Below, piece after piece: positions 7,601-36,110 of a stretch of 64,000 nt of DNA. The stretch comes from Mariniphaga sediminis (GTDB lineage Bacteria; Bacteroidota; Bacteroidia; Bacteroidales; Prolixibacteraceae), in the NCBI RefSeq assembly GCF_003573545.1, contig NZ_QWET01000016.1, positions 62,001-126,000 on the forward strand, given 5' to 3'. The notes beneath the pieces are model-generated. The model did not search any database. It saw nothing but the letters and a program-made list of their open reading frames with translations, and was not told where the DNA came from. The position numbers were made by a program, and so were the translations under genes. The number at the start of each line of letters is the position of its first letter. Within the stretch, counting starts at the first letter, position 1.

Positions 7601-8225
7601 AGCAACGAAACATCCCGCAGCATTTGGAGAGGGAGGAACATACAATGAACCTGGACATTTTAAGTATAGAGATGTTAATAAGGATGGAGTTATTAATGAT
7701 AAGGACAGGACATTGATAGGAAGTCCACATCCTGATTTTACTGCTGGAGTAACTGTAAATATGGAGTATAAGAATTTTGACTTGTCTGCTGATTTATATA
7801 TGTCATATGGAAATGATATTTTGAATTTGATGAGAAGAAAGCTCGATTTTCAGAGATTTGCAGGAAATCGGTCAACCCGTACTCTTTACGAATCGTGGGG
7901 AAGCCCTTATCTAGCAAACAACGAGGATGCAAAAATGCCAAAATATGAAACAAATGATGCTGGTAGCCAGGAACCCTCTACATATTTCGTCGAAGATGGT
8001 TCATACTTACGTTTGAATAATGTTGAGTTGGGATATTCACTGCCTCATAATATTGCTAAAAAAATTGATATACGTTTTTTTACTCGTGCTTCAAATCTGT
8101 TTACTATTACTAACTATACTGGATTAGACCCGGAAGTTTTATCATCGGGAATAAGTCTGGGGCAAGATGACAGCGCAAGGCCAATCTCTTCACAAGTAAT
8201 GTTTGGTGTTAACTTTAATTTTTAA
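4662..8225 (+). CDS. SusC/RagA-family TonB-dependent outer-membrane transporter with STN domain
   Basis: 1187 residues. After an N-terminal signal segment (LTFFLILVSTMLVSAGVYSQ) comes an STN (secretin/TonB short N-terminal) domain at ~45-115. A carboxypeptidase-like regulatory domain (~130-210; GTTNGTVTNADGEYSL) and a TonB-box/plug region (EEVVAVGYGYQTK, VRIHGITSINNNEPLWVIDG, ASAIYGARGASGVILVTTK) follow. The remainder is a C-terminal 22-strand-type barrel ending in GVNFNF with a terminal Phe. It imports glycan oligomers together with the SusD lipoprotein, and the STN domain couples import to the FecR/sigma pair upstream. The barrel part reads visibly more AT-rich than the first ~650 bases. 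Confidence 0.97.
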   Translation: MKKKCEKPTRLKCAWLQKLVKIMKLTFFLILVSTMLVSAGVYSQNTKLSLHYEEISIGDLLELIEEQTEFRFAFSKSSLNRDEKVSINVKGEKLDKVLSIILDPNQLSYRIIDKYVVISDKSVPGENRGFQPQITVSGKATDSSGSPLPGVTVVIKGTTNGTVTNADGEYSLAGIPDNATLIFSFVGMKTQEVVVGSQTSINVTMEEETIGIEEVVAVGYGYQTKEEISASVSVINAEDITKNNKTDLQQILQGKASGVTVLKSHSLGGGASVRIHGITSINNNEPLWVIDGVPGATIPQPDEIASISILKSADASAIYGARGASGVILVTTKTGRKKMATKISVNVTQGLNMSPKFYNLLNTQEYAELYWLQQMNSGVPTDQISHPLFGSGAQPSLPEYIVPARATSELITNDYISEKYDNRQVNEDGNDVFLISKASIPGTDWWDVITRNGFYQKYDMNIIGGSEKSTFGIVAGYLNEDDYYKYFDYQRYYLRVNTDHDLNNWLTIGQRLNTRYEIDKTFTGLHGYTNVIYACHTTNPIIPVYDVMGNFMGSQVPGGQITGYNPLAALYRGRNSYQNNLNLSGNLYIEANILKGLKAKSQAGFDVGMSERKRYGYRTREHIPPVDYDEVQKYYDSDRTWSWINTINYTTEISDEHSLNLLAGSECIGNKWGYLSGGRQNYYSAGDEPPVYYMIINAGETNRTNAGSYTSWSSFSLFGRLNYQFRDKYIVNATFRRDGSSRFGKNNRYGNFPAISLAWRVSEEQFLKKLDWLNLLKIRGGWGLVGNDRIGNYNSYTTYNVVEGGAPPGSWGDSPTSFYALNGENVGGTSGVQSAAFGNPNAKWETTETINFGIESRIFDFLYVSVEKWQKITKDMLYQASIPAVVGDAAIPSVNIAQMKNRGFDLELKILPKMKGNFKYDFSLYLSHYKNEVTQLTDIEGETLWSPDWAGSRYAIARVGTEYPIFYGYIVDGIFQTEEEATKHPAAFGEGGTYNEPGHFKYRDVNKDGVINDKDRTLIGSPHPDFTAGVTVNMEYKNFDLSADLYMSYGNDILNLMRRKLDFQRFAGNRSTRTLYESWGSPYLANNEDAKMPKYETNDAGSQEPSTYFVEDGSYLRLNNVELGYSLPHNIAKKIDIRFFTRASNLFTITNYTGLDPEVLSSGISLGQDDSARPISSQVMFGVNFNF

Positions 8226-13621: not shown

Positions 13622-14479
13622 ATGAAGAAAAGTATATTCGTAAAAATTTCTGTTTTACTGGCAGTTATGGTTTTATCGTTAGCTGTTTTTGCACAAAAAA
13701 GCAAGCTGGACAAAGCCGGCTGGAAACTGGGGGTACAAAGTTACTCGTTCCATAGATTTACTTTTACAGAAGCCGTTGACATAGCCCACCAGCTGGGACT
13801 GAACTACATGGAAGTGTATTACGGCCAGCCTTTGGGCGAAGGCATGGAAGGCACCATGGATTTCAGGATGGATAAAGAAACCCGCAAACAGATACTGAAA
13901 TATGCCCAATCAAAAAAGGTTAAAATCATGGCCAGCGGCGTGGTTATCTGCAAAGACGAACAGGAATGGAAACAGCTTTTTGAATTTGCCAATGCCATGG
14001 GCATTAAAATCATTACCTGCGAGCCGGAGTACAAACACCTGGAATATGTGGATGAACTGGCCAACAAGTACAAAATAGATGTGGCCATCCACAACCACCC
14101 GAAACCATCGAATTACTGGAAGCCTGAAATGTTTCTCGAAGCCACCAAAGAGCTGAGCAGCCGGATTGGGGCATGTGCCGATGTGGGCCACTGGGCACGC
14201 ATGGGGCTCGACCCGGCAGAATGCCTAAAAAAGTACAATGGCAAGGTAAAGTCGCTGCACTTTAAAGACATTAAAGCAGCAGAAGCGGGGGAAGCCGAAC
14301 GCCACGATGTGATTTGGGGGACCGGTTCGCTGGATATAGAAGGCATGCTTGCGGAATTAAAAAAACAAGACTTCGAAGGCCTCTTTTCCATCGAATACGA
14401 ACACAACTGGGATAACTCGGTTCCCGATATCGAAAAAAGCATTACATATTTCAAAAAGCTTGTCGATGAACTATATTAA
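13622..14479 (+). CDS. Exported sugar phosphate isomerase/epimerase-like TIM-barrel protein
   Basis: 285 residues with a cleavable signal peptide (FVKISVLLAVMVLSLAVFAQ). The mature part is an AP-endonuclease-2/xylose-isomerase-like TIM barrel. It contains WKLGVQSYSFH, LNYMEVYYG, the ICEPEYK-type strand (IITCEPEYKHLEY), IDVAIHNHPKP, IGACADVGHWARMGLDP, VKSLHFKDIK and FSIEYEHNWD. The Glu, His, Asp and Glu residues at the barrel ends are the usual metal ligands. It is exported, which rules out a classical cytoplasmic phosphate-sugar isomerase. Paired with the exported Gfo/Idh enzyme upstream, it likely acts on an oxidised sugar or glycoside in the periplasm (inference). Confidence 0.85.
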   Translation: MKKSIFVKISVLLAVMVLSLAVFAQKSKLDKAGWKLGVQSYSFHRFTFTEAVDIAHQLGLNYMEVYYGQPLGEGMEGTMDFRMDKETRKQILKYAQSKKVKIMASGVVICKDEQEWKQLFEFANAMGIKIITCEPEYKHLEYVDELANKYKIDVAIHNHPKPSNYWKPEMFLEATKELSSRIGACADVGHWARMGLDPAECLKKYNGKVKSLHFKDIKAAEAGEAERHDVIWGTGSLDIEGMLAELKKQDFEGLFSIEYEHNWDNSVPDIEKSITYFKKLVDELY

Positions 14480-14547: not shown

Positions 14548-16434
14548 ATGAAAAATTTATTTATCACTTGGCTTTTCGTTCTATTTATTGGTACTGCATT
14601 TGCGCAGGGACAAAAACAGAATCAACCTGATAGTAACAATGCAATTGTAGACCTTTTACAACCTGCTACTGCATCTCAAATACGTGGTTTCTTGGGAGAA
14701 AAATTGGATGCTTCTTACTACAATCGGATACTAGCACAGGATGTTGAACGACTAATTTCTCCGTTTTGGAACCGGACAGAAACCAGTTGCTGGCAAAGTG
14801 AATTTTGGGGGAAATGGTTAACGTCGGCCGTATTGGCTTATTGCTACCATCCTGAACCGCAATTGAAAGATATTTTAGATATGGCAGTTGAGGGGCTTAT
14901 AGCTACTCAATCAGCTAATGGATATATCGGGAATTATGCAGATGATTGGCATCTTAAAAATTGGGATATATGGGGAAGAAAGTACTGTTTGCTTGGTTTA
15001 TTGGCATATTACAATCTTAGAAAAGATGGTACTGTATTGCAAGCAGCTTGTAACCTAGCTGACCATTTAATAAAAGAACTTGCTGATAATAAAGTATTGA
15101 TTGTAAAACAAGGGAACCACCGTGGTATGGCTGCTTCTTCGATACTAGAACCCATTTGCCTTCTTTTCTCTCGGACAAAAGAAAAACGATACCTTGAATT
15201 TGCCAAAGAAATTGTACGTCAGTGGGAAATTACTGATGGACCTCAACTTATTACAAAAGCAAATGTTGATGTGTCAAAACGTTTCCCAAAAACTACAAAC
15301 TGGTATGGATGGGAGCAGGGGCAAAAGGCATATGAAATGATGTCATGCTACGAAGGATTGCTAGAATTTTATCGCTTAACAGGGAAAGACGAATATAAAG
15401 AAGCAGTTGAAAAAACTTGGGAAAATATACGTAGTACTGAAATAAATATCGTTGGTTCAGGGGCATCTATAGAATGTTGGTTTGGCGGAAAGGAATTACA
15501 ATCACAACCAATTCTCCATTACCAAGAAACTTGTGTTACGGTAACTTGGATAAAACTATGCCAGAAATTACTACGATTAACAGGAGAAGCTAAATATGCA
15601 GATGCTATTGAACAAGCATATTACAATGCCTTATTGGGATCTATGAAGCCTGATGGAGCAGAATGGGCGATGTACTCCCCTCTCTCCGGGCAACGGATGG
15701 TAGGCAGTGAACAATGCGGCATGGGGATAAATTGCTGTAAGGCTAATGGCCCCCGCAGTTTATTCTCATTTCCATCTACTGTTGCAATGGGCAGAAACGA
15801 TGGGCTACAGGTAAATTTTTATGCAAAGGGAGCTTATGTTCTTCAAACCCCGGATGGGCAGAAAGTCAAATTGGTACAGGAAACAGATTATCCGATTAGT
15901 GGAAAAATCAACATCAAAATAGAATTGCCCAAGTCGGAAGAAATGGCAATCCGGTTACGTATACCTGAATGGAGCAAACATTCTTCTCTTTTTGTGAACG
16001 AGAAATCAGTTCCGGGAATTACTGCCGGGCAATATGTCGTTATCCAAAAGAAATGGAAAGACAAGGACAAAATAAGTTTGTACCTGGATATGAAAGGTAA
16101 AATTATAAAACCAGGGAAACAAACTGAGAATATAGCTATCGTACGAGGTCCAATTGTCTTTGCACGCGACAGCCGCTTGCTCGGTTCACCCCTCGATGCA
16201 TGGTTAATCCCGTTAACTGATAAAGACGGTTATTTAAATTTGAAAATGAACGAACAAAAACCACAAGGTTTCTGGATGCAATGCAAAGTGCAGTGCAAAT
16301 ACGAACCTACTCAAAAAGGAGGTGACCAACAAGGTCAGTTAACCTTTTGCGATTACGCTTCGGCCGGAAACACCTTCGACGAGCGTTCACGTTTTCGGGT
16401 TTGGTTTCCTCAGTTAATTGATCCTCGAAAGTAA
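14548..16434 (+). CDS. GH127-type beta-L-arabinofuranosidase-like glycoside hydrolase (DUF1680)
   Basis: 628 residues with signal peptide MKNLFITWLFVLFIGTAFAQ. An (alpha/alpha)6-barrel domain includes FWNRTETSCWQSEFWGKWLTS, SANGYIGNY and GYxEGLLEFYRLTG-like repeats. The GH127 metal/nucleophile set is visible: QETC with Glu327 and Cys329, and NCC with Cys396 and Cys397, equivalent to the Zn-binding Glu/Cys and nucleophilic Cys of characterised beta-L-arabinofuranosidases. A C-terminal beta-sandwich follows (LRIPEWSK, VNEKSV, IVRGPIVFAR). It is predicted to remove terminal L-arabinofuranose in the periplasm. Family members GH127/GH146 cannot be separated by eye. Confidence 0.9.
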   Translation: MKNLFITWLFVLFIGTAFAQGQKQNQPDSNNAIVDLLQPATASQIRGFLGEKLDASYYNRILAQDVERLISPFWNRTETSCWQSEFWGKWLTSAVLAYCYHPEPQLKDILDMAVEGLIATQSANGYIGNYADDWHLKNWDIWGRKYCLLGLLAYYNLRKDGTVLQAACNLADHLIKELADNKVLIVKQGNHRGMAASSILEPICLLFSRTKEKRYLEFAKEIVRQWEITDGPQLITKANVDVSKRFPKTTNWYGWEQGQKAYEMMSCYEGLLEFYRLTGKDEYKEAVEKTWENIRSTEINIVGSGASIECWFGGKELQSQPILHYQETCVTVTWIKLCQKLLRLTGEAKYADAIEQAYYNALLGSMKPDGAEWAMYSPLSGQRMVGSEQCGMGINCCKANGPRSLFSFPSTVAMGRNDGLQVNFYAKGAYVLQTPDGQKVKLVQETDYPISGKINIKIELPKSEEMAIRLRIPEWSKHSSLFVNEKSVPGITAGQYVVIQKKWKDKDKISLYLDMKGKIIKPGKQTENIAIVRGPIVFARDSRLLGSPLDAWLIPLTDKDGYLNLKMNEQKPQGFWMQCKVQCKYEPTQKGGDQQGQLTFCDYASAGNTFDERSRFRVWFPQLIDPRK

Positions 16435-16748
16435 GTTATAGTAATCTTTTCTTATAAAACCATTTTTACAAAGCCAATTGGAGAAGAGCTTGACAGGCTC
16501 GTCGAAGTGGCATAAAAAACAAAGAAAGGAGGAGAATATGGGAAATACCCCAAGAGTGTATGGGCGAGGTACGTTCTTTTAACTCAAAAAAGGAAAATCA
16601 AGAGGCGTTTTATGCTCGAAGGACAAAGGATACAGAATATTTAAAGGTGGAGTTAAACCAAATTGACTCCAATTGAATAGCCTTTGCTTCATAAGCCGGA
16701 AAAAAATCAATTTGGATATTTAAGTTTACTTTTTCTGGAGATAGTCAA
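16435..16748. other. 314-bp spacer with possible gene-end relic
   Basis: No intact gene. Between ~16465 and 16515 an open stretch reads TKPIGEELDRLVEVA then stops, which looks like the C-terminus of a lost protein. A strong GGAGGAG precedes an ATG at 16538 that opens only a 13-codon frame. Both fit a decayed or rearranged gene between the two glycosidases. TGGAGT and ACTCCA near 16646-16671 form a short inverted repeat. Confidence 0.35.
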
Positions 16749-19132: not shown

Positions 19133-19568
19133 GTTAGGACTTTAAGATGACTATTGAAATATTGGATATTGAAATAGACATTCAGTATTTCATTAGTAGT
19201 TTTTAATTTATTGACGTGATGATCAAGTTCTCTGCTGGTTCGGATGTACAGCCCGCCCCGTTTAGCAACACGCTGACGCAAGATTGCATCTTGTGGCAAT
19301 TTCCAACGATACATCAACATACGTGTGGCGTAAAAAGGAACACGGTAAAATCGTGCCTCTTTGGGAACAAAAGAAAAAACACATACTACCGGTTTTGAGG
19401 AAATAAAATAAATGCCAGGATAAATACAGAAAAAACTGTCACAACTGACGACCTTTTTTGTACTCTTCCTAACAATTGGAAGTTGCAATCTAATTTGCGA
19501 GAGTTTGGCATGAATCACCACCGAACCTGAACCATTAATGAGCCATTTGAGCCAATAATATTTTAATT
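19133..19568. mobile_element. Decayed mobile-element-like DNA with REP-like palindrome
   Basis: No intact gene. A minus-strand frame contains the peptide RVAKRGGLYIRTSREL and looks like a fragment of repeat-derived sequence. At 19279-19293 CAAGATTGCATCTTG is a hairpin with 6-bp arms and a 3-nt loop, next to a GC-rich patch (CAGCCCGCCCCGTTTAGC). This arrangement resembles intergenic REP-like units of this phylum. Copy A of the 48-bp dispersed repeat lies at 19468-19515. Element identity is inferred only from appearance. Confidence 0.35.
19468..19515 (+). repeat. 48-bp dispersed repeat, copy A
   Basis: Shares the block GGAAGTTGCAA plus flanking bases with copies at 27048-27095 and 29724-29771. 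Read on the plus strand in one frame all three encode LT(x)GSCNLICESL(x) followed by a stop, with differences mostly at third codon positions. Confidence 0.6.
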
Positions 19569-25010: not shown

Positions 25011-26708
25011 ATGAAACTCAAAACTATTCTTTTTTTATTAAACATTTGGATTATTGGAGATAAAGATCCTTCCAATATCTCCTATGGTTCAATTTTATCC
25101 TCTCTATCTCAGGCGAAGTCTGAGGTTGAACTTTTTGATGGACTGGGCTCATATAAATGCAGCTTAAGTGAATTTTCTTCAAATGCTCAGGATTACTTGA
25201 ATCAGGGTTTTATTTGGTTGCAATCCTTTAACCATGATGAAGCAATTCGCTTGTTCACAAAAGCAACAGAAATTGATCCTAATTGCGCAATTGCATGGTG
25301 GGCGATATCGTATGCTCAAGGACCAAATTATAATGATCCATTCATGACGGAGCAAAGGAATCAAGCTTCGTGGGATGCATTGCAGAAAGCTATAAAACTT
25401 TTAGAATCTGCATCACCTATAGAAAGAGACCTCATTGAAACATTGAAAACCCGATATGAGAATCCATTCCCAGCAGATCGTTCAAAACTGGAAAAAGCCT
25501 TTGCTGAATCAATGGCAAAAGTTTGGAAGAAATACCCTGAAAATCCGGACGTTGGAGCAATATATGCCGAATCAATGATGCAAATCAGACCTTGGGGTTT
25601 ATACACTACTGACCGCGAACCTGTAGAAGGCACGGAATTTATTGTAGAGACACTGGAACAAGTTCTTAATTTGAACCCAAATCATCCCGGAGCATGTCAC
25701 TTATACATACATGCAGTTGAACAAGGTAAGATTCCTGAGAAAGCGCTTGCAGTTGCTGAACGTTTAGGCAACATGGTTCCTGCCAGCGGACACATGATTC
25801 ATATGCCTTCGCACATTTATACCAGAGTAAACATGTGGGATCGTTCGATTATTCAAAACGAATTAGCCATGGAGGCGGATATCCGGTATCGAAAGATTTC
25901 TCCAAATCAGGGAATTCAACATATGTATATGGTACATAATAATCATATTCTTTCATATTCTGCAATGATGATAGGACATAAAAATAAAGCTCTTGATGCA
26001 TCCCGTCATATGTGGACCGATATACCCAAGGATAAACTCAAGATGCTCACGCCTGACATTGATATTTGGATGTGTTCTGTTTACGATGTGCAAAAGCGCT
26101 TTGGCCTTTGGGATGAACTACTTGAAGAACCTGCACCTCCAGAATTTATGCCTATAACTTCTGCTATGTGGCGGGCACATCGTGCTATTGCATATGCCGC
26201 TAAAAAGAATTTTGATGCTGCAGAAACAGAGTATGCTGAGTTTAAAGAATTATACAACACTACTCCTCCACAGGAATTGTTATTTCCGGGATGGACTGAG
26301 GAGTCATATCGAAAACGTTTGGATCCGATTCTTCATTTTGTTCCCGGTGAAATTGCACTACAAAAAGAAGATTATGCACTTGCCATTGAACATTTGAAAA
26401 AGGCAGTGTTGGCAGAAGATGAATTAGGTTTTGGTGGAGAGCCACCTGAATATCTCCAACCAATCAGACATACTCTGGGTGCCGTTTATTTTAAAGCTGA
26501 AAAATTCGAAGCTGCGGAACAAGTGTATCGCGAAGATCTTGAAGAGTTTCCCGGAAATGGATGGTCATTGTATGGATTAAGCAGGGCCCTTGATGCACAG
26601 GGTAAATCAACAGAAGCGGACATTGTAGAAAGACAGTTCCTAACTGCTTGGGCAGAAGCAGATGTTCCACTCCTTAAAACAACATGTGAATGTATTAAGG
26701 ACATGTAA
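25011..26708 (+). CDS. Tetratricopeptide-repeat protein with N-terminal signal
   Basis: 565 residues from the ATG at 25011 (MKLKTILFLLNIWII); a TTG at 24987 would only add residues before the signal. TPR-like helical pairs recur, for example DYLNQGFIWLQSFNHDEAIR, LFTKATEIDPNCAIAWWAI and HPGACHLYIHAVEQGKIPEK near 85-260, and LYGLSRALDAQGKSTEAD at the end. The central part has a HMIHMPSHIYTRVNMW motif with several His residues that recurs in this TPR subgroup. Probably periplasmic and a protein-interaction scaffold. The natural partner is unknown, and it is separated by 460 bp from the next gene. Confidence 0.8.
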   Translation: MKLKTILFLLNIWIIGDKDPSNISYGSILSSLSQAKSEVELFDGLGSYKCSLSEFSSNAQDYLNQGFIWLQSFNHDEAIRLFTKATEIDPNCAIAWWAISYAQGPNYNDPFMTEQRNQASWDALQKAIKLLESASPIERDLIETLKTRYENPFPADRSKLEKAFAESMAKVWKKYPENPDVGAIYAESMMQIRPWGLYTTDREPVEGTEFIVETLEQVLNLNPNHPGACHLYIHAVEQGKIPEKALAVAERLGNMVPASGHMIHMPSHIYTRVNMWDRSIIQNELAMEADIRYRKISPNQGIQHMYMVHNNHILSYSAMMIGHKNKALDASRHMWTDIPKDKLKMLTPDIDIWMCSVYDVQKRFGLWDELLEEPAPPEFMPITSAMWRAHRAIAYAAKKNFDAAETEYAEFKELYNTTPPQELLFPGWTEESYRKRLDPILHFVPGEIALQKEDYALAIEHLKKAVLAEDELGFGGEPPEYLQPIRHTLGAVYFKAEKFEAAEQVYREDLEEFPGNGWSLYGLSRALDAQGKSTEADIVERQFLTAWAEADVPLLKTTCECIKDM

Positions 26709-27047
26709 TTATTCAGCTTTCCAATTTTTTTAATGTCAGCAAAATGTGATAGGTACCTTCCTATTCTATTACTTCAGGTGTATAAGAAGTGGAATTTTCA
26801 TCAGGATTATAATCAATTTTACAGTCTCTGATGTTATCCTCTGGTGGTTCCGGCATTTTCAGAGGAAGCGATTCCATTGGGAGAACCGTGTCTCGATTCG
26901 ATACAATACAGCTCGCAACTTTGTAGCAACACTTCGGGATATGGTCCCTGAAGGCATAACACCTTTCGAAACTTCTGAACTGAAGATTTCTTACAATGAG
27001 AATGCTGTGGAATACACTCATATCGTGCTTGATGAATTTGAATATCC
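26709..27047. other. Spacer with possible coding remnant
   Basis: No intact gene. A minus-strand frame ending at 26761 reads like the C-terminus of a protein (MESLPLKMPEPPEDNIRDCK, then IDYNPDENSTSYTPEVIE). A plus-strand frame on the same DNA runs into the 48-bp repeat. One of them may be a remnant; I cannot decide which. Confidence 0.3.
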
Positions 27048-27095
27048 CCTGACAGCCGGAAGTTGCAACCTGATTTGTGAAAGTTTAGTGTAAAT
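27048..27095 (+). repeat. 48-bp dispersed repeat, copy B
   Basis: Matches copy C (29724-29771) at about 41 of 48 positions and stands 75 bp upstream of the first membrane AraC gene, as copy C stands 79 bp upstream of the second. The intervening DNA is also related (TTTTTCAATACAAAAA, then GTAAATTGTA in both). Confidence 0.65.
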
Positions 27096-27170
27096 AATCA
27101 GCAAATTGGATCAATCTTTCAATATTTTTCAATACAAAAATTAGTAAATTGTATATGCAATTTTTAGCAT

Positions 27171-28331
27171 ATGCTTTTATTTTTATCCATTACAGGTATT
27201 TTTTTGTCATTAATTTTACTGTATTTCAATGCGAAGAAATACACATCTACCATCTACCTGAGTTTATTCTTTTTATTTATTAGCCTTTATGGTTTTTATC
27301 AGTACATTTTACTGTATTCCAAATCAGTAACACTTATCAGTCTTTTCCTTTTTAATTTATCGGTTGCAGGCTCTCCCGTTTATTTAATCGGGCCGATGCT
27401 ATTTTGGTACACAAGAAGTGTTTTAACAGATGATGCGAAACTGAAAAGAAGCGATTTTTGGCATTTTATCCCAGCAGTTATCTTTTTTATTTCAGCTTTA
27501 CCAAATTCCTTTGTTCCCTGGCACGAAAAAGTAGAAGCTGCTGAAACTGTTATTCATGACCAGAGCTACATTATGATTTACAAAGCCACATTATTAAGTG
27601 AAATTTTCTCTTCTGTTACAATTTTCATAACACGTCTCTTCCTGGTTTTAGGATATACAATATGGTCTATTGGCTTATTCATAAACTATCTGGTAAAGAA
27701 AAAATCATCTGCAGTTTTGTCGAAACAACAATTTATGAGAAAATGGTTGTGTTATTTACTGGGATTTATGTTGATTTTGGTTGTCAGCCAGATGGCCCTC
27801 GTCATTAAAAGTTTTGAAATGCATTTTTCTACCGTATTCTTTACATTTAATATCATACGTGTTGTATCAGTAGTCGGGCTTCTTGGATTGCTTATCTCGC
27901 CATTCTTTTTTCCAACCATTCTTTATGGGTTACCCCGAATGTCTAAAACAAATGAGACAAAGCCGTCCTTTTATTCTTTTGAATCCGATTATCTTCAATC
28001 CATAGGGAAAAAATCAGATTCTGTTATGGAAGAGCTGCAGCTTTATCTGGAACCCGATTGTAATCTTGCCTTTTTTTCAAAGCAAATTAATATTCCAGCT
28101 CATCATCTTTCATATTATTTCAGGGAGGTAAAAAAACAACGTTTTAATGATTTCAGAAATGAGTGGCGAATTAACCATGCAAAAGCCCTTATTCAGGAGG
28201 GAAAGGCAAATGAGATTACCTTGGAAGCCATTGGGACGCTTTCCGGATTCTCATCGCGAAATGCATTTATTACTGACTTTAAAAAGCTGGAAGGAGAATC
28301 TCCAGGCACCTATGCTGCCCGCTTCAATTAA
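27171..28331 (+). CDS. Membrane-anchored AraC-family transcriptional regulator, paralog 1
   Basis: 386 residues. About seven hydrophobic segments fill residues 1-235 (for example MLLFLSITGIFLSLILLYF, LFFLFISLYGFYQYILLY and VSVVGLLGLLISPFFFPTIL). A cytoplasmic AraC/XylS helix-turn-helix domain follows (~275-385; FNDFRNEWRINHAKALIQEG, GTLSGFSSRNAFITDFKKLEG). One-component sensors of this design detect a signal in or at the membrane and act on nearby genes. It is about three-quarters identical to the gene at 29851. Just downstream lie two inverted repeats and a FISUMP lipoprotein gene, its likely target. Confidence 0.9.
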   Translation: MLLFLSITGIFLSLILLYFNAKKYTSTIYLSLFFLFISLYGFYQYILLYSKSVTLISLFLFNLSVAGSPVYLIGPMLFWYTRSVLTDDAKLKRSDFWHFIPAVIFFISALPNSFVPWHEKVEAAETVIHDQSYIMIYKATLLSEIFSSVTIFITRLFLVLGYTIWSIGLFINYLVKKKSSAVLSKQQFMRKWLCYLLGFMLILVVSQMALVIKSFEMHFSTVFFTFNIIRVVSVVGLLGLLISPFFFPTILYGLPRMSKTNETKPSFYSFESDYLQSIGKKSDSVMEELQLYLEPDCNLAFFSKQINIPAHHLSYYFREVKKQRFNDFRNEWRINHAKALIQEGKANEITLEAIGTLSGFSSRNAFITDFKKLEGESPGTYAARFN

Positions 28332-28355
28332 AAAATTTCTTTAAAAACCATCTTC

Positions 28356-28386
28356 CCTTGCACCATTTTTCAAAAACAGTACAAGG
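28356..28386 (+). promoter_or_regulatory. Inverted repeat IR1, copy 1 (conserved leader block)
   Basis: CCTTGCAC (28356-28363) and GTACAAGG (28379-28386) pair at 7 of 8 positions around a 15-nt spacer, 24 bp after the AraC stop. The same element, with perfect 7-bp arms, follows the paralogous gene at 31067-31095. It may be an operator or a weak terminator; there is no U-tract. Confidence 0.5.
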
Positions 28387-28463
28387 TGAACCTCCAAAAA
28401 TTTCCTCTTTTTTTTTCACTTCCCGAATTTTGTTTGAAGTTATATAACTACAGCTGAATTCAT

Positions 28464-28510
28464 GAGACGGTAATGCAAATCTGGATTAACCAGCCACGCA
28501 TGACCGTCTC
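28464..28510 (+). promoter_or_regulatory. Inverted repeat IR2, copy 1 (conserved hairpin leader of the FISUMP lipoprotein)
   Basis: GAGACGGTAATGC (28464-28476) and GCATGACCGTCTC (28498-28510) pair at 12 of 13 positions with a 21-nt loop, 64 bp before the ATG at 28575. The counterpart at 31174-31220 also pairs at 12 of 13, with the single mismatch at a different position. The stem is thus kept while the sequence drifts. No U-tract follows, so this is not a standard terminator. Confidence 0.65.
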
Positions 28511-28574
28511 TGAACAGCAGTAGTAAAAACACATTCTTAATTCAACTGAGTTATAACTTTAAAAACTAAAAATC

Positions 28575-29570
28575 ATGGAAAAAAAATTGTTTGAAAAAAG
28601 AACCATCAAAAGAATGATTCCTTATGTATTAGCTCTAGTTCTGATTTCTATTTCATTCCAGTCTTGCCAAAAGGATGAAATACTACTGAACGATTTTGAA
28701 AATGAATCTATCCAATTAAAAAGTGCAACTATTTCAATTGGTGCGATTGATGCACTGATTGATAAAATTGAAAATTATGAAACCGCAGGTGTATTAGATT
28801 CCAAACTGGCAAATGTTTTTATCAAAGAACTTGAAAATGTAAAGAAAAGCCTGGAAAAAGGAAATGAGAAAGCGGCAGAAAACCTGCTTCAGGCAATCAT
28901 ATATCAACTTGAGGGTATGGTGAAAGCCGGAAACATTGAGACATCTATTGGTGAAGGACTTATTTCTCAACTGGAATCAATGGTTGGAGAATATCCAACA
29001 TTTACTGATACGAGAGACGGTCATGTTTATAAGATAGTTACCATCGGAAATCAGACCTGGATGGCTGAGAACCTGGCGTATGATGCAGGTACCGGATGTT
29101 ACGCTTATAACAATGATGAAAGTAATGTGGCTATTTATGGCAGATTATATACATGGAATGCAGCGATGGCAGGAGGAACCACCCCCGGTGCACAAGGTAT
29201 TAGCCCTGATGGTTGGCACATTCCAACGATTGCAGAATGGGAAGAACTTCGGTCGTACCTTGGTGGAGAAGAAGTTGCCGGCGGAAAGATGAAAACAACA
29301 GGTACAATACAAGATGGTACTGGTTTATGGGTAACTCCAAATACAGCGGCTACCAACGAAAGTGGTTTTAGCGGGTTACCCGGAGGTATTGTTAATTACT
29401 CAGGTAATTCTGAAGCTATAGGCATATATGGATTTTGGTGGAGTTCTAACCAAACCACAACAACCACTGCTGCAAATATGCGTTTAGATTTTGGTTCAGG
29501 GTATTTAGTTCGACAAGATCTGAATAAGATATATGGGCAAAGTATCCGTTGTATTAAAGATAGCGAATAA
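28575..29570 (+). CDS. FISUMP-domain surface lipoprotein
   Basis: 331 residues. N-terminal lipoprotein signal with lipobox FQSC (VLALVLISISFQSC, Cys ~31). Residues ~50-140 are helical with a repeated pattern of Lys/Glu/Leu (FIKELENVKKSLEKGNEKAA). The rest is a Fibrobacter-succinogenes-major-paralogous (FISUMP) domain: YKIVTIGNQTWMAENLAYDA, YGRLYTWNAAM, GWHIPTIAEWEEL, ESGFSGLPGG, WWSSNQT and QSIRCIKDSE at the end. It is likely on the outer surface. Function of the FISUMP domain is not established. It follows the first AraC paralog and its hairpin leader. Confidence 0.9.
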   Translation: MEKKLFEKRTIKRMIPYVLALVLISISFQSCQKDEILLNDFENESIQLKSATISIGAIDALIDKIENYETAGVLDSKLANVFIKELENVKKSLEKGNEKAAENLLQAIIYQLEGMVKAGNIETSIGEGLISQLESMVGEYPTFTDTRDGHVYKIVTIGNQTWMAENLAYDAGTGCYAYNNDESNVAIYGRLYTWNAAMAGGTTPGAQGISPDGWHIPTIAEWEELRSYLGGEEVAGGKMKTTGTIQDGTGLWVTPNTAATNESGFSGLPGGIVNYSGNSEAIGIYGFWWSSNQTTTTTAANMRLDFGSGYLVRQDLNKIYGQSIRCIKDSE

Positions 29571-29684
29571 GTGAAGTTTGACTATTTGGTTAATTTTGAT
29601 TTTTAGGGAAATACAGAATTAATCTAAATGATTTCGGAGAATTAGGCATTTACATTCTAACCTTGAATAAATCCAGGCTCAAAA

Positions 29685-29711
29685 AAAAGAGGTCGATACT
29701 GACCTCTTTTT
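29685..29711 (+). terminator. Rho-independent terminator downstream of the FISUMP lipoprotein gene
   Basis: AAAAGAGGTC (29685-29694) / GACCTCTTTTT (29701-29711), a 10-bp stem with a 6-nt loop, flanked by A-run and T-run so it could work in both directions. It lies 114 bp after the stop codon. Confidence 0.8.
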
Positions 29712-29723
29712 GCTTTTGGCTCC

Positions 29724-29771
29724 CCTGACAGTTGGAAGTTGCAACCTAATATGTGAAAGTTTGGTGTGAAT
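29724..29771 (+). repeat. 48-bp dispersed repeat, copy C
   Basis: Copy starting CCTGACAGTTGGAAGTTGC, immediately after the terminator and 79 bp before the second AraC paralog. See copies A and B for comparison. Confidence 0.65.
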
Positions 29772-29850
29772 TTGCATCAACTTGAACTAATCTTCTTGTA
29801 TTTTTCAATACAAAAAATTCGTAAATTGTACCTCATAATTAATGTAGTAG

Positions 29851-31041
29851 ATGCTTTTATTTTTATCGATAGCCGGCATTTTCTTGTCTTTGCTTCTACT
29901 GTATTTCAATGCAAAAAAATTTGCATCTACTACCTATCTCGGTATTTTCTTCTTTTTGATTAGTCTGTATGGTCTTTATCAATATATATTATTGTATTCA
30001 AAATCAGTTACCTTAATCAGTCTTTTTCTTTTTAATCTTTCTTTATTCAGCTCTCCGGTTTATTTAATTGGACCAATGCTTTACTGGTATGTCAGAAGTG
30101 TGCTAACTGATGATCCAAAATTGAAAAGAAGCGATTTATTGCATTTTATTCCTGCAATAATTTTTTTCATTTCAGCCTTGCCAAACACTTTTGTTCCATG
30201 GCAAGAAAAAGTAGAAGTAGCAAAAACAGTTGTAAGTGATCAAAGTTATATAATGGTATATAAAGCTACATTATTAAGCGAATTTCTCTCTTCAGCTACC
30301 ATATTTTTAACTCGACTTTTTCTGGTTCTTGGGTATACAATATGGTCAATTGTTTTATTTATTAATTACATAAAAAAAAGAAAATCATCATCAGTATTCT
30401 CGAAGCAACAATTCATGAAAAAGTGGTTATGCTATTTGCTCGGGTTTATGTTGATTTTGGTGATCAGTCAGTTGTTTATGGTATCTAAAAGTTTTGAGAT
30501 GCATTTTCCCGCGATATTCTTTACATTCAATATCATACGAGTAATATCGGTAGTTGGGCTTGTAGGGCTTTTAATCTCACCATTCTTTTTCCCGACTATT
30601 CTTTACGGATTACCCCGGATGCCCGAAAGAAATGAAGAGGAAAAAGATAACAGGCTGACAAATGAGACTAAACCACCTTCCAATTCTTTTGAATCCGATT
30701 ATCTTCAATCCATCGGACTAAAATCAGATTCTTTAATGAAAGAGAAGCAGCTTTATCTTGAACCTGAATGCAATCTTGGTTTTTTCTCCAGGCAAATTGA
30801 CGTCCCGGCTCATCATCTTGCATACTATTTTAGGGAAATAAAAAAGCAGCGCTTTAATGATTTTCGCAACGAGTGGCGGATTAACCATGCAAAATCCCTC
30901 ATTCAGGAAGGCAAAGCAAATGAAATTACCCTTGAAGCAATCGGATCACTTTCCGGATTCTCTTCCCGTAACGCATTTATAACCGACTTCAAAAAAACAG
31001 AAGGCGTTTCGCCAAGCGTGTATGCCTCCCGATTCAATTAA
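29851..31041 (+). CDS. Membrane-anchored AraC-family transcriptional regulator, paralog 2
   Basis: 396 residues, the same architecture as the gene at 27171: about seven membrane segments (MLLFLSIAGIFLSLLLLYF onward), then an insertion of ~10 residues in the linker (EEEKDNRLTN), then the AraC helix-turn-helix (FNDFRNEWRINHAKSLIQEG, GSLSGFSSRNAFITDFKKTEG). The DNA-binding half is nearly identical to paralog 1, so the two may recognise similar sites. The spacing to its following inverted repeats matches that of paralog 1 to within a base or two. The next gene is a large T9SS surface protein. Confidence 0.9.
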   Translation: MLLFLSIAGIFLSLLLLYFNAKKFASTTYLGIFFFLISLYGLYQYILLYSKSVTLISLFLFNLSLFSSPVYLIGPMLYWYVRSVLTDDPKLKRSDLLHFIPAIIFFISALPNTFVPWQEKVEVAKTVVSDQSYIMVYKATLLSEFLSSATIFLTRLFLVLGYTIWSIVLFINYIKKRKSSSVFSKQQFMKKWLCYLLGFMLILVISQLFMVSKSFEMHFPAIFFTFNIIRVISVVGLVGLLISPFFFPTILYGLPRMPERNEEEKDNRLTNETKPPSNSFESDYLQSIGLKSDSLMKEKQLYLEPECNLGFFSRQIDVPAHHLAYYFREIKKQRFNDFRNEWRINHAKSLIQEGKANEITLEAIGSLSGFSSRNAFITDFKKTEGVSPSVYASRFN

Positions 31042-31066
31042 AAAAATTTCATAAAGAACTCCCTTT

Positions 31067-31095
31067 CTTGTACCATCTTTCAAAATCAGTACAAG
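31067..31095 (+). promoter_or_regulatory. Inverted repeat IR1, copy 2 (conserved leader block)
   Basis: Perfect 7-bp arms CTTGTAC (31067-31073) and GTACAAG (31089-31095) with 15-nt spacer; same place relative to the AraC stop as IR1 copy 1. Confidence 0.5.
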
Positions 31096-31173
31096 GGTAA
31101 CCCTCAAAAATTTCAGCATTGATTTTCACTTTCCGAATTTTGTTTCAGGTTATTTAACTACAGCTGAATTTAT

Positions 31174-31220
31174 GAGACGGTCATGTTAAACTGAATCAAA
31201 CGGCCACACATGACCTTCTC
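31174..31220 (+). promoter_or_regulatory. Inverted repeat IR2, copy 2 (conserved hairpin leader of the GLUG/T9SS gene)
   Basis: GAGACGGTCATGT (31174-31186) and ACATGACCTTCTC (31208-31220), 12 of 13 pairs, 21-nt loop, 61 bp before the ATG at 31282. It lies 132 bp after the AraC stop, exactly as copy 1 does. Flanking blocks (AACTACAGCTGAATT upstream, CAGCAGTAGTAAAAAC downstream) are conserved too. Confidence 0.65.
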
Positions 31221-31281
31221 TAATCAGCAGTAGTAAAAACCATTTTAATTCAACTTAGTTATAACCTTTAATTAAAAAATC

Positions 31282-34200
31282 ATGAAAAAAGTACTACTTC
31301 TAAACCTGATGTTGCTCATCATAAGCTGGGCAATAAGTGCACAAACTGCCACCCCGCCTGCAATTGGCGATGGTTCTGAAAGTAATCCCTATCAAATTGC
31401 AACTCTTGAAAACCTTTACTGGATTGCAACGAATTCATCTCGGTCTATGGGGGATAATTATTTTATTCAAACGGCAGATATTGACGCATCTTCAACTGCA
31501 AATTGGACCGGTGGCTGGACTCCTATTGGCAATAGTACGAATAATTTTTGGGGACACTACGATGGAATGAATCATGTTATTTCAGGTCTTTATATTAATA
31601 GTTCCTCTAATGCTGAAATTGGGCTTTTTGGTTTCACACAAAACGCTGAATTTAAGAACCTGGGTATTACGAATGTTTATATTGAAGCAGAAAGTGCAGA
31701 AAATACAGGAGCACTTTTAGGATATGCCGATTTTAATGTTATAGTTGATAACTGTTTTAGTACGGGTACAGTAAAGGGACATTATTTCACAGGTGGATTA
31801 GCAGGTTATTTGACAAATTACAATACTAATACAACCATCCGTAACAGTTACAGTACGTGCAATGTAAGTGGTTCTCAATATGCAGGAGGATTAGTTGGTG
31901 TTTGTCAAAGTTATGTTTCTATTCTTAATTGTTTTCATGCTGAAGGCACTGTTGAATGCAATGAAGGTTGCGGAGGTCTGATTGGATATGTTAATGGAGC
32001 AACAATCTCACAATGTTATAGTACTGGAAAAGTGATAGGTAATTCCGGTGCGGGTGGTTTGATTGGTATTAATGCTGGTTCAACAATTTATAATAGTTAC
32101 AGCAAGTGCCCGGTCACAAGCAATTCAACTTTTCAGTCATGCGGAGGCCTTGTTGGATTAACTATTGGCAATGCAAACATAATCAATTCCTATAGTACCG
32201 GATCTGTTTTGTCTGGTATGGGCGGATTGGTCGGAGGCTTTAATCCTGATTATGGTACTCCTACTATTACGAGTTCTTTTTGGGACACCGAAACATCAGG
32301 AACAACCTTGAGTGCAGCAGGTGTGGGAAAAACCACTGTACAAATGACAATGGAATCGACCTTTACCAATGCAGGTTGGGATTTTACAACTACTTGGGGC
32401 ATGAACGCAGGTTGCAATGACAAATATCCTTACCTGATCCCAAAGGTCATCAGGTTACCATCGGTAACCATTACATGCGATGTTAATGGAGAGATATGTT
32501 CCAACATGACACCGAATTTCACGGCAACGCCACACAACACCGGCGTAGGCGATATTTACTATTCATGGAAGCTTAATGGTGAATCGGTTGGATTAAACCA
32601 GAATCCTTACACTTTAATAGACCTTGTACCTGGATATGAGTATAAGGTAAGCTGTGAAATAACTGTTGCCGACACTACCTGTTGTACTTCTGTCACAGCT
32701 ACTTCGAACGAAATTACACTATACGTCACTGACAAACCAGATGCTGGAGAGATAACCGGGAAAAATCTGATTCAGGTTGGGGATACCACTACACTTAGCT
32801 CAACTGTTACAGGTGGCTTCTGGTTGAGTGCTTATGATACGATTGCCACAGTAGATGAATATGGCAAGGTTACCGGCACGGGTGTCGGAGAAACAACTAT
32901 AGGTTATGCAGTAATAGGAGATGATCCATGCAATGAAGTTGGTTGGACGGAATTTCAGATTACAGTAAGTGAACCTCAGAGCCAATGTACGGGTTCCGCT
33001 TTGGCCGTATTTGCCTATCTCGATAACGACAATAACATGAACCCGCAAAATGCAACCGGTGAACCGGATGACCAATTCGCTGCGATTGGATACATGGAAC
33101 ATGTTCAGCTTGACCTTACCGGTGGCAACCTGACCATTGCAAGCCCGGTAACCATCCGTATGAGAAAAGAACCGGGCGGCGATAACTCATTTGCCTTGAT
33201 ATTTGAATCTGAGAATGGCCAATACTGGAGTGTGCCAGGACCGTTCACGGTGACAACCGATGATTTTACAGAATATAATATCAACTTGAACGAAAACACA
33301 CGCTACATCAGCATTGAAAATCTTTCTCCAAACTGGTTGTTTGTCGAATCGGTCACATTCAACTACCCCTGTCAGGAATGTACCGATGGTACACTTACAC
33401 TGATCTCGGACAATAGCCAACAATCAGTTTGCCTTTCGACCGCCGTCGGCGACATCGTTTACACAACAGGTGGTAGCGCGACCGGAGCAACCGTGGAAGG
33501 GTTACCGACTGGAGTTGGCGGAACTTTCGATAACGGAACATTCACGATCAGTGGTACACCAATTGTATCAGGCACTTTCGATTATACAGTTACCACCACA
33601 GGTATTGTGTCGCCTTGTGCAGAAGCAATCGCCACAGGGACCATTACTGTTAATGCACTGCCGGATGTTTCGGATATTATTCCTTCAACTACAGATCCGA
33701 TAGCAATTAATGTATTATTATCAATAACTGTTTCATACTCGGATGTTGACGGCAATGTCGAAACTGCTGTTATTGACTGGGGAGATGGAAGTAGCAATGA
33801 CTTTTCAATAAAAGAGCATTCTTATGCTAGTGCAGGAGTTTATACAATAACTGCATCGGTAGTCGATGATTGTGGTAAGGTAACTAAAACATACCAGTAT
33901 GTTGTCGTTTACGATCCATCCGCAGGCTTTGTAACCGGTGGCGGCTGGATAGAATCACCAATATGTGACAATGTTGATCCTGCTTATGAATATATGGATG
34001 TAAGTGGCACAGCTAATTTTGGTTTTGTTGCCAAATATTTGAAAGGAAAACAAACACCTGATGGCAGCACCGAATTCCAGTTCAAAGCCGGAGGTCTGAA
34101 TTTCAAAAGTACCGATTATGAATGGTTGATAATCGCTGGTTCAAAAGCTCAATATAAAGGCTCAGGTACAATTAATGGTTCCGGCGATTTCGGATTTATG

Positions 34201-34683
34201 CTTAGTGCTGTCGATGCTGATTTAGCCGAAATTACTGAAACGGATCTCTTCCGAATCAAAATCTGGGATAAAAACAATGGTGACGCAGTAGTATATGATA
34301 ACCAATGTGGAGCTGATGACTATGCTGATCTAGATCAAACGACTGCAATTTCAGGAGGTTCAATTGTGATTCATTCCGCAGACAATAAAACCAAATCAGC
34401 TACCATTCAGATCGACTTTGACAAGCCGGAATTGAATGTTTATCCCAATCCGTTCAGCGAAAGATTGTATTTTAAATTTATTTCACCTGTCGATACCCAT
34501 GTCCGCATTGATTTATACGACCTGACAGGACGACTAATTCAAACGGTATTTAACAATCAGGTTGAAGCAGAAATAAAATATACAACGGATTTTATTCCGG
34601 GGAATACTGTTACCAATATGTATGTTTATCGCATGACGATGGGAGAAACAGTTTTCAATGGGAAAGTTTTTTATAAACAGTAG
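31282..34683 (+). CDS. Large secreted GLUG-repeat/Ig-like/PKD protein with T9SS type A sorting domain
   Basis: 1133 residues with signal peptide MKKVLLLNLMLLIISWAISAQ. Order of parts: an N-terminal module (ESNPYQIATLENLYWIA); GLUG-type repeats at ~90-345 (GLFGFTQNAEFKNLGITNV, GGLVGVCQ, GGLIGINAGSTIYNSYS); Ig-like/Big-2-like segments (~390-570); a discoidin-like domain (~575-700); a putative Ig domain (~705-795); a PKD domain (VIDWGDGSSND, ~830); a GFVTGGGWIESP domain (~890-1040); and a C-terminal type A sorting domain (LNVYPNPFSERLYFKF to VFYKQ). It is predicted to be exported by T9SS and anchored to the surface, probably as an adhesin. It is the likely target of the AraC paralog upstream. 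Confidence 0.9.
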   Translation: MKKVLLLNLMLLIISWAISAQTATPPAIGDGSESNPYQIATLENLYWIATNSSRSMGDNYFIQTADIDASSTANWTGGWTPIGNSTNNFWGHYDGMNHVISGLYINSSSNAEIGLFGFTQNAEFKNLGITNVYIEAESAENTGALLGYADFNVIVDNCFSTGTVKGHYFTGGLAGYLTNYNTNTTIRNSYSTCNVSGSQYAGGLVGVCQSYVSILNCFHAEGTVECNEGCGGLIGYVNGATISQCYSTGKVIGNSGAGGLIGINAGSTIYNSYSKCPVTSNSTFQSCGGLVGLTIGNANIINSYSTGSVLSGMGGLVGGFNPDYGTPTITSSFWDTETSGTTLSAAGVGKTTVQMTMESTFTNAGWDFTTTWGMNAGCNDKYPYLIPKVIRLPSVTITCDVNGEICSNMTPNFTATPHNTGVGDIYYSWKLNGESVGLNQNPYTLIDLVPGYEYKVSCEITVADTTCCTSVTATSNEITLYVTDKPDAGEITGKNLIQVGDTTTLSSTVTGGFWLSAYDTIATVDEYGKVTGTGVGETTIGYAVIGDDPCNEVGWTEFQITVSEPQSQCTGSALAVFAYLDNDNNMNPQNATGEPDDQFAAIGYMEHVQLDLTGGNLTIASPVTIRMRKEPGGDNSFALIFESENGQYWSVPGPFTVTTDDFTEYNINLNENTRYISIENLSPNWLFVESVTFNYPCQECTDGTLTLISDNSQQSVCLSTAVGDIVYTTGGSATGATVEGLPTGVGGTFDNGTFTISGTPIVSGTFDYTVTTTGIVSPCAEAIATGTITVNALPDVSDIIPSTTDPIAINVLLSITVSYSDVDGNVETAVIDWGDGSSNDFSIKEHSYASAGVYTITASVVDDCGKVTKTYQYVVVYDPSAGFVTGGGWIESPICDNVDPAYEYMDVSGTANFGFVAKYLKGKQTPDGSTEFQFKAGGLNFKSTDYEWLIIAGSKAQYKGSGTINGSGDFGFMLSAVDADLAEITETDLFRIKIWDKNNGDAVVYDNQCGADDYADLDQTTAISGGSIVIHSADNKTKSATIQIDFDKPELNVYPNPFSERLYFKFISPVDTHVRIDLYDLTGRLIQTVFNNQVEAEIKYTTDFIPGNTVTNMYVYRMTMGETVFNGKVFYKQ

Positions 34684-34952
34684 CGTTTATTAAACACGAA
34701 TATTGACCATCAAAGGAAGCAAGTTAGGTTTTAACTTAACTTGAAATTGGCGGAAATAACACATCTACTAAAATTTATGGAGAAAAATTTTATCCGAATT
34801 TGACCTGTAAACCTATTAACTTTACTATACTTTCGATTATACACAATGTTGGGGATTGATCTATAAAATGAATTGCTAAGTTGCAACTTGTCAATTCACA
34901 AACCAATGCAGGTACTTCTCAACACCAGCAAGGTTTTGAAAAATTCAGGCAT
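34684..34952. other. Spacer after the T9SS protein gene
   Basis: No gene seen. A short palindrome AAGTTGCAACTT near 34878 is the only structure noted. It marks the border between the accessory cassette and core genes. Confidence 0.4.
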
Positions 34953-34981
34953 AAAAAAAGGAGATCAAAATTGATCTCCTT
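34953..34981 (-). terminator. Terminator of the tRNA-Asn transcript
   Basis: On the minus strand an 11-bp-armed hairpin (AAGGAGATCAA / TTGATCTCCTT, 34958-34981) is followed by a run of T (34953-34959 on that strand). It lies 6 bp after the tRNA 3' end. Confidence 0.85.
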
Positions 34982-34986
34982 CCATA

Positions 34987-35063
34987 TGGCTCCCCAGGTA
35001 GGACTTGAACCTACGACCTACGGATTAACAGTCCGCCGCTCTAACCAACTGAGCTACTAGGGA
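34987..35063 (-). tRNA. tRNA-Asn (anticodon GTT)
   Basis: 77 nt on the minus strand including an encoded CCA end. The acceptor stem TCCCTAG/CTGGGGA pairs with one G-T. D-loop AGCTCAGTTGGTTAGAGC, anticodon stem GGACT/AATCC-type with loop CTGTTAA reading GTT, T-arm TAGGTTCAAGTCCTA. It is a normal, complete tRNA. Confidence 0.95.
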
Positions 35064-35105
35064 ATTTTTTTATTTCTTAGAACGTTTGCTTTTTCTAAAG
35101 CGATG

Positions 35106-35113
35106 CAAAAATA
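35106..35113 (-). promoter_or_regulatory. Probable -7 box of the tRNA-Asn promoter
   Basis: TATTTTTG on the minus strand, the same sequence as the -7 box of the tRNA-Glu promoter, 43 bp upstream of the tRNA 5' end. No clean TTTG at the usual distance, only a T-rich stretch. Confidence 0.5.
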
Positions 35114-35180
35114 ACAGCTTTTCGCAAAAGAAAAAATTTTTTTGAAAAAGAATTCGTCTCTTTTAAGTTCCTTCAATTTT

Positions 35181-36110
35181 TCAAAATAATCTTTTCCTTT
35201 TTACCAGGTAAGCCAGCAAAACCTCTTTAAAATCTTTATTGATATCGGCTTCAGCCAGATCGATCTGATACTGACCGCATTTTAGCTTCAAATCGTTAAA
35301 ATAAGACTTTACGGCCGAAGTATAATAGTCTTTCACTTCCCAGGGATTAAATTTTACCATCTGCCCGCTTTCCAGGTCCACAAATTTATGAGGGCGGTTG
35401 CTAAATTGAAACTCCCTTTCCTGCCTGTGGTCCGTTACATGAAAAAGCAGTACCTCGTGTTTATTGTAGCGAAGATGTTGCAGCGCAGAAAAAAGCTCTT
35501 CCGTTTTATTACTGTCTATCATGTCGCTGAAAATAATTACCAGAGAACGTTTATGTATGTTTTCGGCAATTTGGTGAAGCACGTCCGTAGTGTTGGTATG
35601 CTTTCGAAGCTGCATGTTTTTGGGGTCAATCAGTTCAGACAATTTACCGAACATCAACTCTGCATTTACCGAAGAAAGCCGGGGAGAAGTGTGAAATTCG
35701 ATTTCATCTGAAAAAAGGGTGAGCCCCACCGCATCGCGTTGTTTACGCAACAAATAAACGAGAGCTGCTGCTGTATATACCGAAAAAGCCAGTTTATTTT
35801 CGAGGTGCTTCTTCCCTTTATAATACGGGAAAAGCATGGAAGAAGAAGTATCAATAACCAGTTGGCAACGTAAATTTGTTTCTTCTTCATATTGCTTCAC
35901 GAAAAGCTTGTCGGTGCGGGCAAACAACTTCCAGTCAATGTGTTTGGTAGATTCTCCCTCGTTGTATTGCCGGTGTTCGGCAAACTCCACCGAAAATCCG
36001 TGAAACGGGCTCCGGTGTAGTCCGGTAATAAATCCTTCGACTACCTCACGGGCAATCAAGCCCAAATTATCGAACTGATGAAACTGTTCTATGTCGAAAA
36101 TATTTTTCAA
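35181..36110 (-). CDS. DUF58 domain protein (VWA-like)
   Basis: 309 residues, no signal or membrane segment. The DUF58 signature GFSVEFAEHRQYNEGESTKH followed by IDWKLFARTDKLFVKQYEEE occupies residues ~38-80. A von Willebrand A-like fold follows with the MIDAS-type DTSSSM. Members usually sit beside MoxR ATPases and Bat proteins; here that partner is not next to it. The neighbour upstream is trxA, separated by a hairpin. The cellular role is not defined. Confidence 0.9.
   Translation of the reverse strand: MKNIFDIEQFHQFDNLGLIAREVVEGFITGLHRSPFHGFSVEFAEHRQYNEGESTKHIDWKLFARTDKLFVKQYEEETNLRCQLVIDTSSSMLFPYYKGKKHLENKLAFSVYTAAALVYLLRKQRDAVGLTLFSDEIEFHTSPRLSSVNAELMFGKLSELIDPKNMQLRKHTNTTDVLHQIAENIHKRSLVIIFSDMIDSNKTEELFSALQHLRYNKHEVLLFHVTDHRQEREFQFSNRPHKFVDLESGQMVKFNPWEVKDYYTSAVKSYFNDLKLKCGQYQIDLAEADINKDFKEVLLAYLVKRKRLF

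Follow-up and report, generated by a model that had tools for sequence, protein, structure and literature searches.

The window analyzed here, a stretch of 64,000 nucleotides of Mariniphaga sediminis DNA, carries two units in which the gene for an AraC-type regulator is followed by a leader and then by the gene for a cargo protein (Table 1). An earlier reading of this DNA, made from the letters alone (the sequence-only reading), had described two units of identical order, and our open reading frames and coordinates agree with it. Its cargo identities, a FISUMP lipoprotein and a 1133-residue GLUG/PKD/T9SS protein, were borne out as well, and a BLAST comparison of the cargo of unit 1 with that of unit 2 gave no match, in keeping with the claim that they are unrelated. 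The lipoprotein of unit 1 possesses a FIMAH domain at 59-136. When the two leaders were aligned, they proved to be 82% identical over 243 bp (E = 4e-58); the two inverted repeats proposed for each of them, here called IR1 and IR2, are real, and the GAGACGG of IR2 begins 132 bp past the stop codon of the regulator gene in both units, exactly as had been noted. Sliding comparison of the DNA of the two units gave identities of 0.65-0.9 up to the start codon of the cargo gene and of 0.38-0.45 beyond it. The regulators are indeed alike, with 80-82% identity overall, but the description of their DNA-binding halves as nearly identical is slightly too strong. The source genome contains only these two close copies of the regulator; the next best AraC matches are 24-32% identical.

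Table 1. Features of the two units and of their surroundings, in window positions.
Feature	Position	Strand	Description
Older left-type scar	19419..19515	.	Same tRNA-Asn hotspot; 77% to left border of locus L039, E = 3.5e-14
Further tRNA-Asn scar	21233		
Left scar, unit 1	27045..27153	.	tRNA-Asn 3'-end remnant (TCCCC...) and GTTGCAAC-containing stretch; includes 48-bp repeat; identity 82% to 29721-29830, 82% to L039 left border, 80% to L040 left border
Regulator, unit 1	27171..28331	+	386 aa; N-terminal 7-helix membrane domain and C-terminal AraC HTH
Leader, unit 1	28332-28574		
IR1, unit 1	28358..28384	.	Proposed operator, TTGCACCATTTTTCAAAAACAGTACAA
-7 promoter box, unit 1	28425..28432	+	GAATTTTG; 40 bp past IR1 right end
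IR2, unit 1	28447..28524	+	Predicted 5'-UTR hairpin, -37.7 kcal/mol, z = -8.5 against dinucleotide shuffles
Cargo, unit 1	28575..29570	+	331 aa lipoprotein, SCQK lipobox, FIMAH and FISUMP domains
Left scar, unit 2	29669..29725	.	tRNA-Asn terminator copy and last tRNA bases, AAAAAAAAGAGGTC...GACCTCTTTTTG..TGGCTCCCC; leads into 48-bp repeat at 29721-29768; 79% to L039 tRNA-Asn flank, 75% to the window's own flank
Regulator, unit 2	29851..31041	+	396 aa; 93% identical to Maribellus sp. YY47 copy
Leader, unit 2	31042-31281		
IR1, unit 2	31068..31094	.	TTGTACCATCTTTCAAAATCAGTACAA
-7 promoter box, unit 2	31135..31142	+	GAATTTTG; 40 bp past IR1
IR2, unit 2	31157..31234	+	Predicted 5'-UTR hairpin, -30.8 kcal/mol, z = -7.5 against dinucleotide shuffles
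Cargo, unit 2	31282..34683	+	1133 aa; signal peptide, GLUG and PKD domains, T9SS type A sorting tail
Right border, unit 2	34930..35063	-	tRNA-Asn and terminator on its 3' side
tRNA-Asn (GTT) gene	34987-35063	-	Single-copy; insertion hotspot

The regulator possesses a two-HTH AraC DNA-binding domain (HTH_18, PF12833; E = 2.5e-12 and 8.8e-11), and its N-terminal membrane part gave no match in Pfam. An AF2 model of the homologue in unit 2, computed from nine input sequences (pLDDT 77.8), displays a helical membrane domain, whose long helices run from 2-20 through 228-246 ahead of the HTH, followed by a low-confidence linker (255-277) and the AraC domain. The best PDB matches of this model are AraC-type domains (e.g., 3oou and 3oio), at only marginal E-values; for the membrane part, the PDB gave similarities to 7-TM receptors that were not significant. 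Our search of the literature on membrane AraC regulators and on FISUMP proteins in Bacteroidetes returned nothing on point.

More than 1,000 genome scans altogether were devoted to relatives of the regulator in the family, the order and the phylum. They revealed a sparse and patchy clade that, the source genome being counted each time, is represented in 22 of 140 genomes of the family (E<=1e-60), 12 of 393 genomes of the order (E<=1e-70) and 3 of 396 genomes of the phylum (E<=1e-70); close relatives within it include Maribellus sp. YY47 and Draconibacterium aestuarii. Deep branches of the regulator tree are poorly resolved. Since the unit 2 regulator and the Maribellus copy are sisters (support 100/99) and unit 1 falls outside, the pair in the window is not a simple recent tandem duplicate, so that the duplicated cassette of the sequence-only reading holds with respect to two related units but not with respect to their recent duplication. 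An older duplication or two separate arrivals are possible origins of the pair. Several regulators of such cassettes are stop-broken or truncated (L046 12067-12857, L058, L051, L065); behind the broken regulator of L046, IR1 and a cargo with a T9SS tail are nonetheless present.

IR1 is a palindrome with a TTTT..AAAA core that usually lies 7-32 bp past the stop codon of the regulator gene, and farther away in some branches. With one detector, IR1-like palindromes less than 500 bp from the stop codon were found in 25 of the 45 clade loci, compared to none of the 20 loci of other, distant 7-helix AraC proteins of Bacteroidota that served as controls. The -7 box of Bacteroidetes promoters reads TAnnTTTG and occupies positions -12 to -5 (PMC9723704). 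Matches to this box average 4.52 of 6 at an offset of 40 from the end of IR1 and 1.89 (sd 0.38) at other offsets; the best or tied-best box stands at 40 bp from IR1 in 18 of 27 loci, and two loci have it 10-12 bp farther away, about one helix turn. Transcription of the unit 1 cargo gene is predicted to start near 28437, and that of the unit 2 cargo gene near 31147. In the 5.8-Mb genome, the window-type IR1 occurs at three sites only, one in each unit and one in a relic on contig C23, where the 40-bp spacing to a -7 box is likewise retained; a reversed-pattern control had no occurrence in the source genome. Five clade members (L047, L050, L093, L095, L096) have no detectable IR1, which counts against the cassette reading. 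The branch comprising L049, L054, L056 and L057 carries an IR1 of the GATGTAACG type, and there a conserved protein of about 46 aa (seen in L049, L054 and L056) that lacks a Pfam match precedes an OmpA-like protein of about 115 aa. The leader with its two inverted repeats had been made part of the module, and homologous regulators devoid of leader blocks would have spoken against it; among the relatives most loci retain IR1 and the promoter, but IR2 belongs to a single six-member subclade only. IR1 is hence the family-wide leader element and the more important of the two repeats, and its geometry reads as that of a dedicated activator operator, with a putative site centred near -66 at which the regulator would bind and activate transcription.

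IR2, which begins about 11 nt into the predicted transcript, is present in six members (unit 1, unit 2, L039, L040, L045 and L126) and stands there ahead of three kinds of cargo. The alignment of these six sequences contains 28 pairs with 93.5% of the cells paired, against at most 50% in sliding controls; three pairs exhibit double changes. Several pairs are preserved as G-U, in favour of a role as RNA, although six sequences are a small sample; IR2 would probably serve to stabilize or tune the mRNA. When we searched Rfam with positions 26500-36000, the tRNA alone reached the gathering score and IR2 had no match; the leader as a riboswitch or other known RNA was ruled out on this basis. A 5'-UTR hairpin as a general feature of the cassette was also rejected, since it is confined to the GLUG subclade and absent from the other leaders tested.

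Homologous regulators elsewhere do not always stand before the same cargo, the outcome that would have spoken against a module. In our tabulation of the genes downstream of the relatives, regulators that are 60-83% identical mostly have unrelated genes behind them. Forty clade pairs have regulators that share 60% identity or more; a clear downstream match was found in only 11 of them, two of these matches being just the common IR2 leader, and no downstream match was found for L041 and L042 with regulators that are 83% identical. In the control set, all of the 25 pairs of distant 7-helix AraC proteins with the highest similarity (58-96% identity) kept the downstream gene. The cargo of the clade comprises T9SS proteins, giants of adhesin-like character among them, of the LamG (3075 aa), Ig_7, CBM6, beta-helix and GLUG kinds, FISUMP lipoproteins, YadA-head/Lcl_C fibre-like proteins, a beta-barrel, and DUF1254/1214, Collar, NusG/UpxY-like and small-protein/OmpA kinds; the small-protein/OmpA branch has kept its cargo, which argues against exchange there. 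FISUMP lipoproteins with similar signal regions are located behind distant regulators (unit 1 and L094), and the cargo of L046 has only its N-terminal 50 aa in common with them, an indication of mosaic cargo. In L063, the cassette is followed by a gene (7568-8104) for a NusG/UpxY-like antiterminator, so that a polysaccharide locus may be under the control of the switch in this case.

These proteins might be ordinary local one-component regulators of an old and fast-evolving clade, with downstream genes that differ through normal genome rearrangement and with no module at all. AraC regulators commonly adjoin their target, an exported protein is encoded downstream about equally often in the controls (12 of 20) and in the clade (23 of 35), and the upstream neighbours of the controls are just as variable; we have consequently abandoned both the exported neighbour as a distinguishing mark of the clade and the divergence of the upstream flanks as evidence. 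Yet these controls retain the gene downstream even where their regulators are no more similar to each other than those of the clade, and in the clade IR1 stays in place, 40 bp ahead of the -7 box, although the gene behind it changes, which leaves this explanation rather unlikely. The special feature of the clade is the changing cargo, not the presence of an exported neighbour.

Genes for tRNAs are among the sites at which mobile DNA is known to land. The 48-bp repeat that the sequence-only reading had made part of the cassette does exist twice (27045-27092 and 29721-29768, with 6 differences), but it is a scar of the tRNA-Asn 3' end and flanks unrelated cargo in a congener too: in G029 the same left repeat (92%) bounds a dehydrogenase gene and a glucoamylase-like gene, functions that were assigned by eye from the sequence. 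Only about 9-11 nt of the window scars lie inside the tRNA, and the remainder is tRNA terminator. Cassettes are positioned 3' of tRNA-Asn in the window and in L039, L040, L044, L046 and L094, the last of which belongs to a different family; four further loci (L042, L050, L055, L065) have them likewise on the 3' side of another tRNA gene, for tRNA-Met, -Gln, -Leu or -Val. L039 and L040 are arranged as in the window, with unrelated upstream flanks, and duplicated tRNA 3' ends flank the cassette in L040, L094 and L055, where a 39-nt copy of tRNA-Gln is found immediately upstream of it. The third IR1 of the genome is situated 223 bp from a copied 3' half of tRNA-Met (95% to C45); in this segment (G000 contig C23, 400019-400268; L068, 9314-9563), the tRNA half and its terminator are followed by the orphan IR1 and a -7 box. 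Near a contig end and devoid of a regulator, the site is a decayed cassette. Proximity to a tRNA gene as such does not differ significantly between clade loci (9 of 45) and controls (1 of 20), and many loci of the clade lack a tRNA within 8 kb; such proximity was dropped as a proof of mobility in its own right, and the argument rests instead on the recurrence of tRNA-Asn, the bias for one side and the duplicated ends. Taken in this way, the cassettes were probably brought by tRNA-targeted elements. In L094, a small GIY-YIG endonuclease gene is duplicated along with the tRNA-Asn 3' end (13717-14004 and 16423-16710), the two copies enclosing a Fic-domain gene. G052 has a second copy of tRNA-Asn (L161 8492-11439), flanked by two related tyrosine recombinase genes.

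The two units could also be passengers of an integrative island at tRNA-Asn, the cassette being a product of island accretion and the regulator having no special link to the cargo. This would fit the repeated tRNA-end scars, the hotspot content, which differs among the congeners G008, G029 and G052 on the 3' side of tRNA-Asn while the genes on its 5' side are common to them, and the island of about 8 kb with a tyrosine recombinase at the same tRNA-Asn in G117. Loci without a tRNA within 8 kb, however, still combine IR1 and the -7 box with an exported cargo encoded on the same strand, and we consider the passenger explanation improbable. A tblastn search of the cassette loci with the G117 and G052 integrases (tyrosine recombinases) found no relative, and the absence of any close copy from plasmid, phage and viral collections led us to reject carriage of the cassette by such elements. 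That IR1 is a site-specific recombination site for promoter-cargo swaps and not an operator is very improbable and was rejected: similarity of L041 to L042 and to L043 drops to background directly past this near-perfect palindrome right behind the regulator, but the spacer between stop codon and IR1 has diverged too, so that the breakpoints are not placed, the similarity of the window pair reaches the start codon of the cargo gene, a constant distance of 40 bp to the -7 box suits an operator, and no relative of the queried tyrosine recombinases lies nearby.

The cassette is real and unusual in that sensor, operator and promoter stay constant while the cargo changes, often at tRNA hotspots. The central claim of the sequence-only reading, a regulator-leader module with different surface proteins, has thus withstood the comparison, but its details on IR2, the 48-bp repeat, the duplication and the exported neighbour have not. 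We regard it as likely that the locus represents a compact expression cassette composed of a 7-helix AraC activator, the putative operator IR1 and an exported, exchangeable cargo. How the cassette is regulated and how it moves, namely the sensing of a signal, the binding of IR1, activation, the function of IR2 and the route of exchange, we infer as follows. The membrane domain would sense the state of the envelope or of the extracellular space, and the AraC domains, bound to IR1 at about -53 to -79, would turn on the adjacent surface-protein gene alone; in the GLUG subclade the transcript would start with the conserved 78-nt hairpin of IR2. Cassettes, which would have no integrase of their own, may spread by horizontal transfer, often within islands at tRNA 3' ends and those of tRNA-Asn above all, and the cargo behind regulator and operator may be replaced after arrival or between copies. 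Modular capture is supported by the exchange data, its mechanism left aside; the fuller proposal, a regulator-operator-promoter plug without integrase that moves among tRNA-targeted islands and captures genes for secreted proteins or lipoproteins under one conserved membrane-sensed switch, is offered tentatively. If correct, environmental Bacteroidota could rewire their surface proteins without re-evolving control, since switch and site stay while the surface protein changes. For AraC proteins of this type, whose membrane sensor is uncharacterised, the cassette would supply a regulator-operator pair that is open to testing and has a strict 40-bp geometry. Surface-adhesin genes could be traced through their putative operator, and IR2 adds a predicted 5'-UTR hairpin that Rfam lacks.

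Among known systems, the one-component activators of the AraC/XylS type share with the cassette the C-terminal AraC-type HTH (PF12833), and IR1, 40 bp ahead of the -7 box, would correspond to their operator close upstream of the activated promoter, often beside the target. In the cassette, however, about seven membrane helices without Pfam match replace the N-terminal ligand domain, there is one dedicated palindromic putative operator, and the target gene is exchanged among relatives. The 7-helix AraC-type proteins of the control set have the same general architecture and an exported neighbour, but one conserved downstream gene and no IR1. Islands with tyrosine recombinases that target tRNA genes resemble the cassette in their position on the tRNA 3' side, the duplicated tRNA ends and a content that varies among relatives, whereas the cassette has no integrase and occurs away from tRNA genes too. 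Phase-variable (invertible) promoters of Bacteroides surface loci also have inverted repeats upstream of surface-protein genes; IR1 and IR2, in contrast, lie upstream and downstream of the -7 box, respectively, are unrelated in sequence and form no promoter-flanking pair, and relatives of the queried tyrosine recombinases are missing nearby. Finally, the gene cassettes of integrons likewise place exchangeable cargo behind a fixed promoter region, but here promoter and regulator travel with each cargo, and IR2 precedes it.
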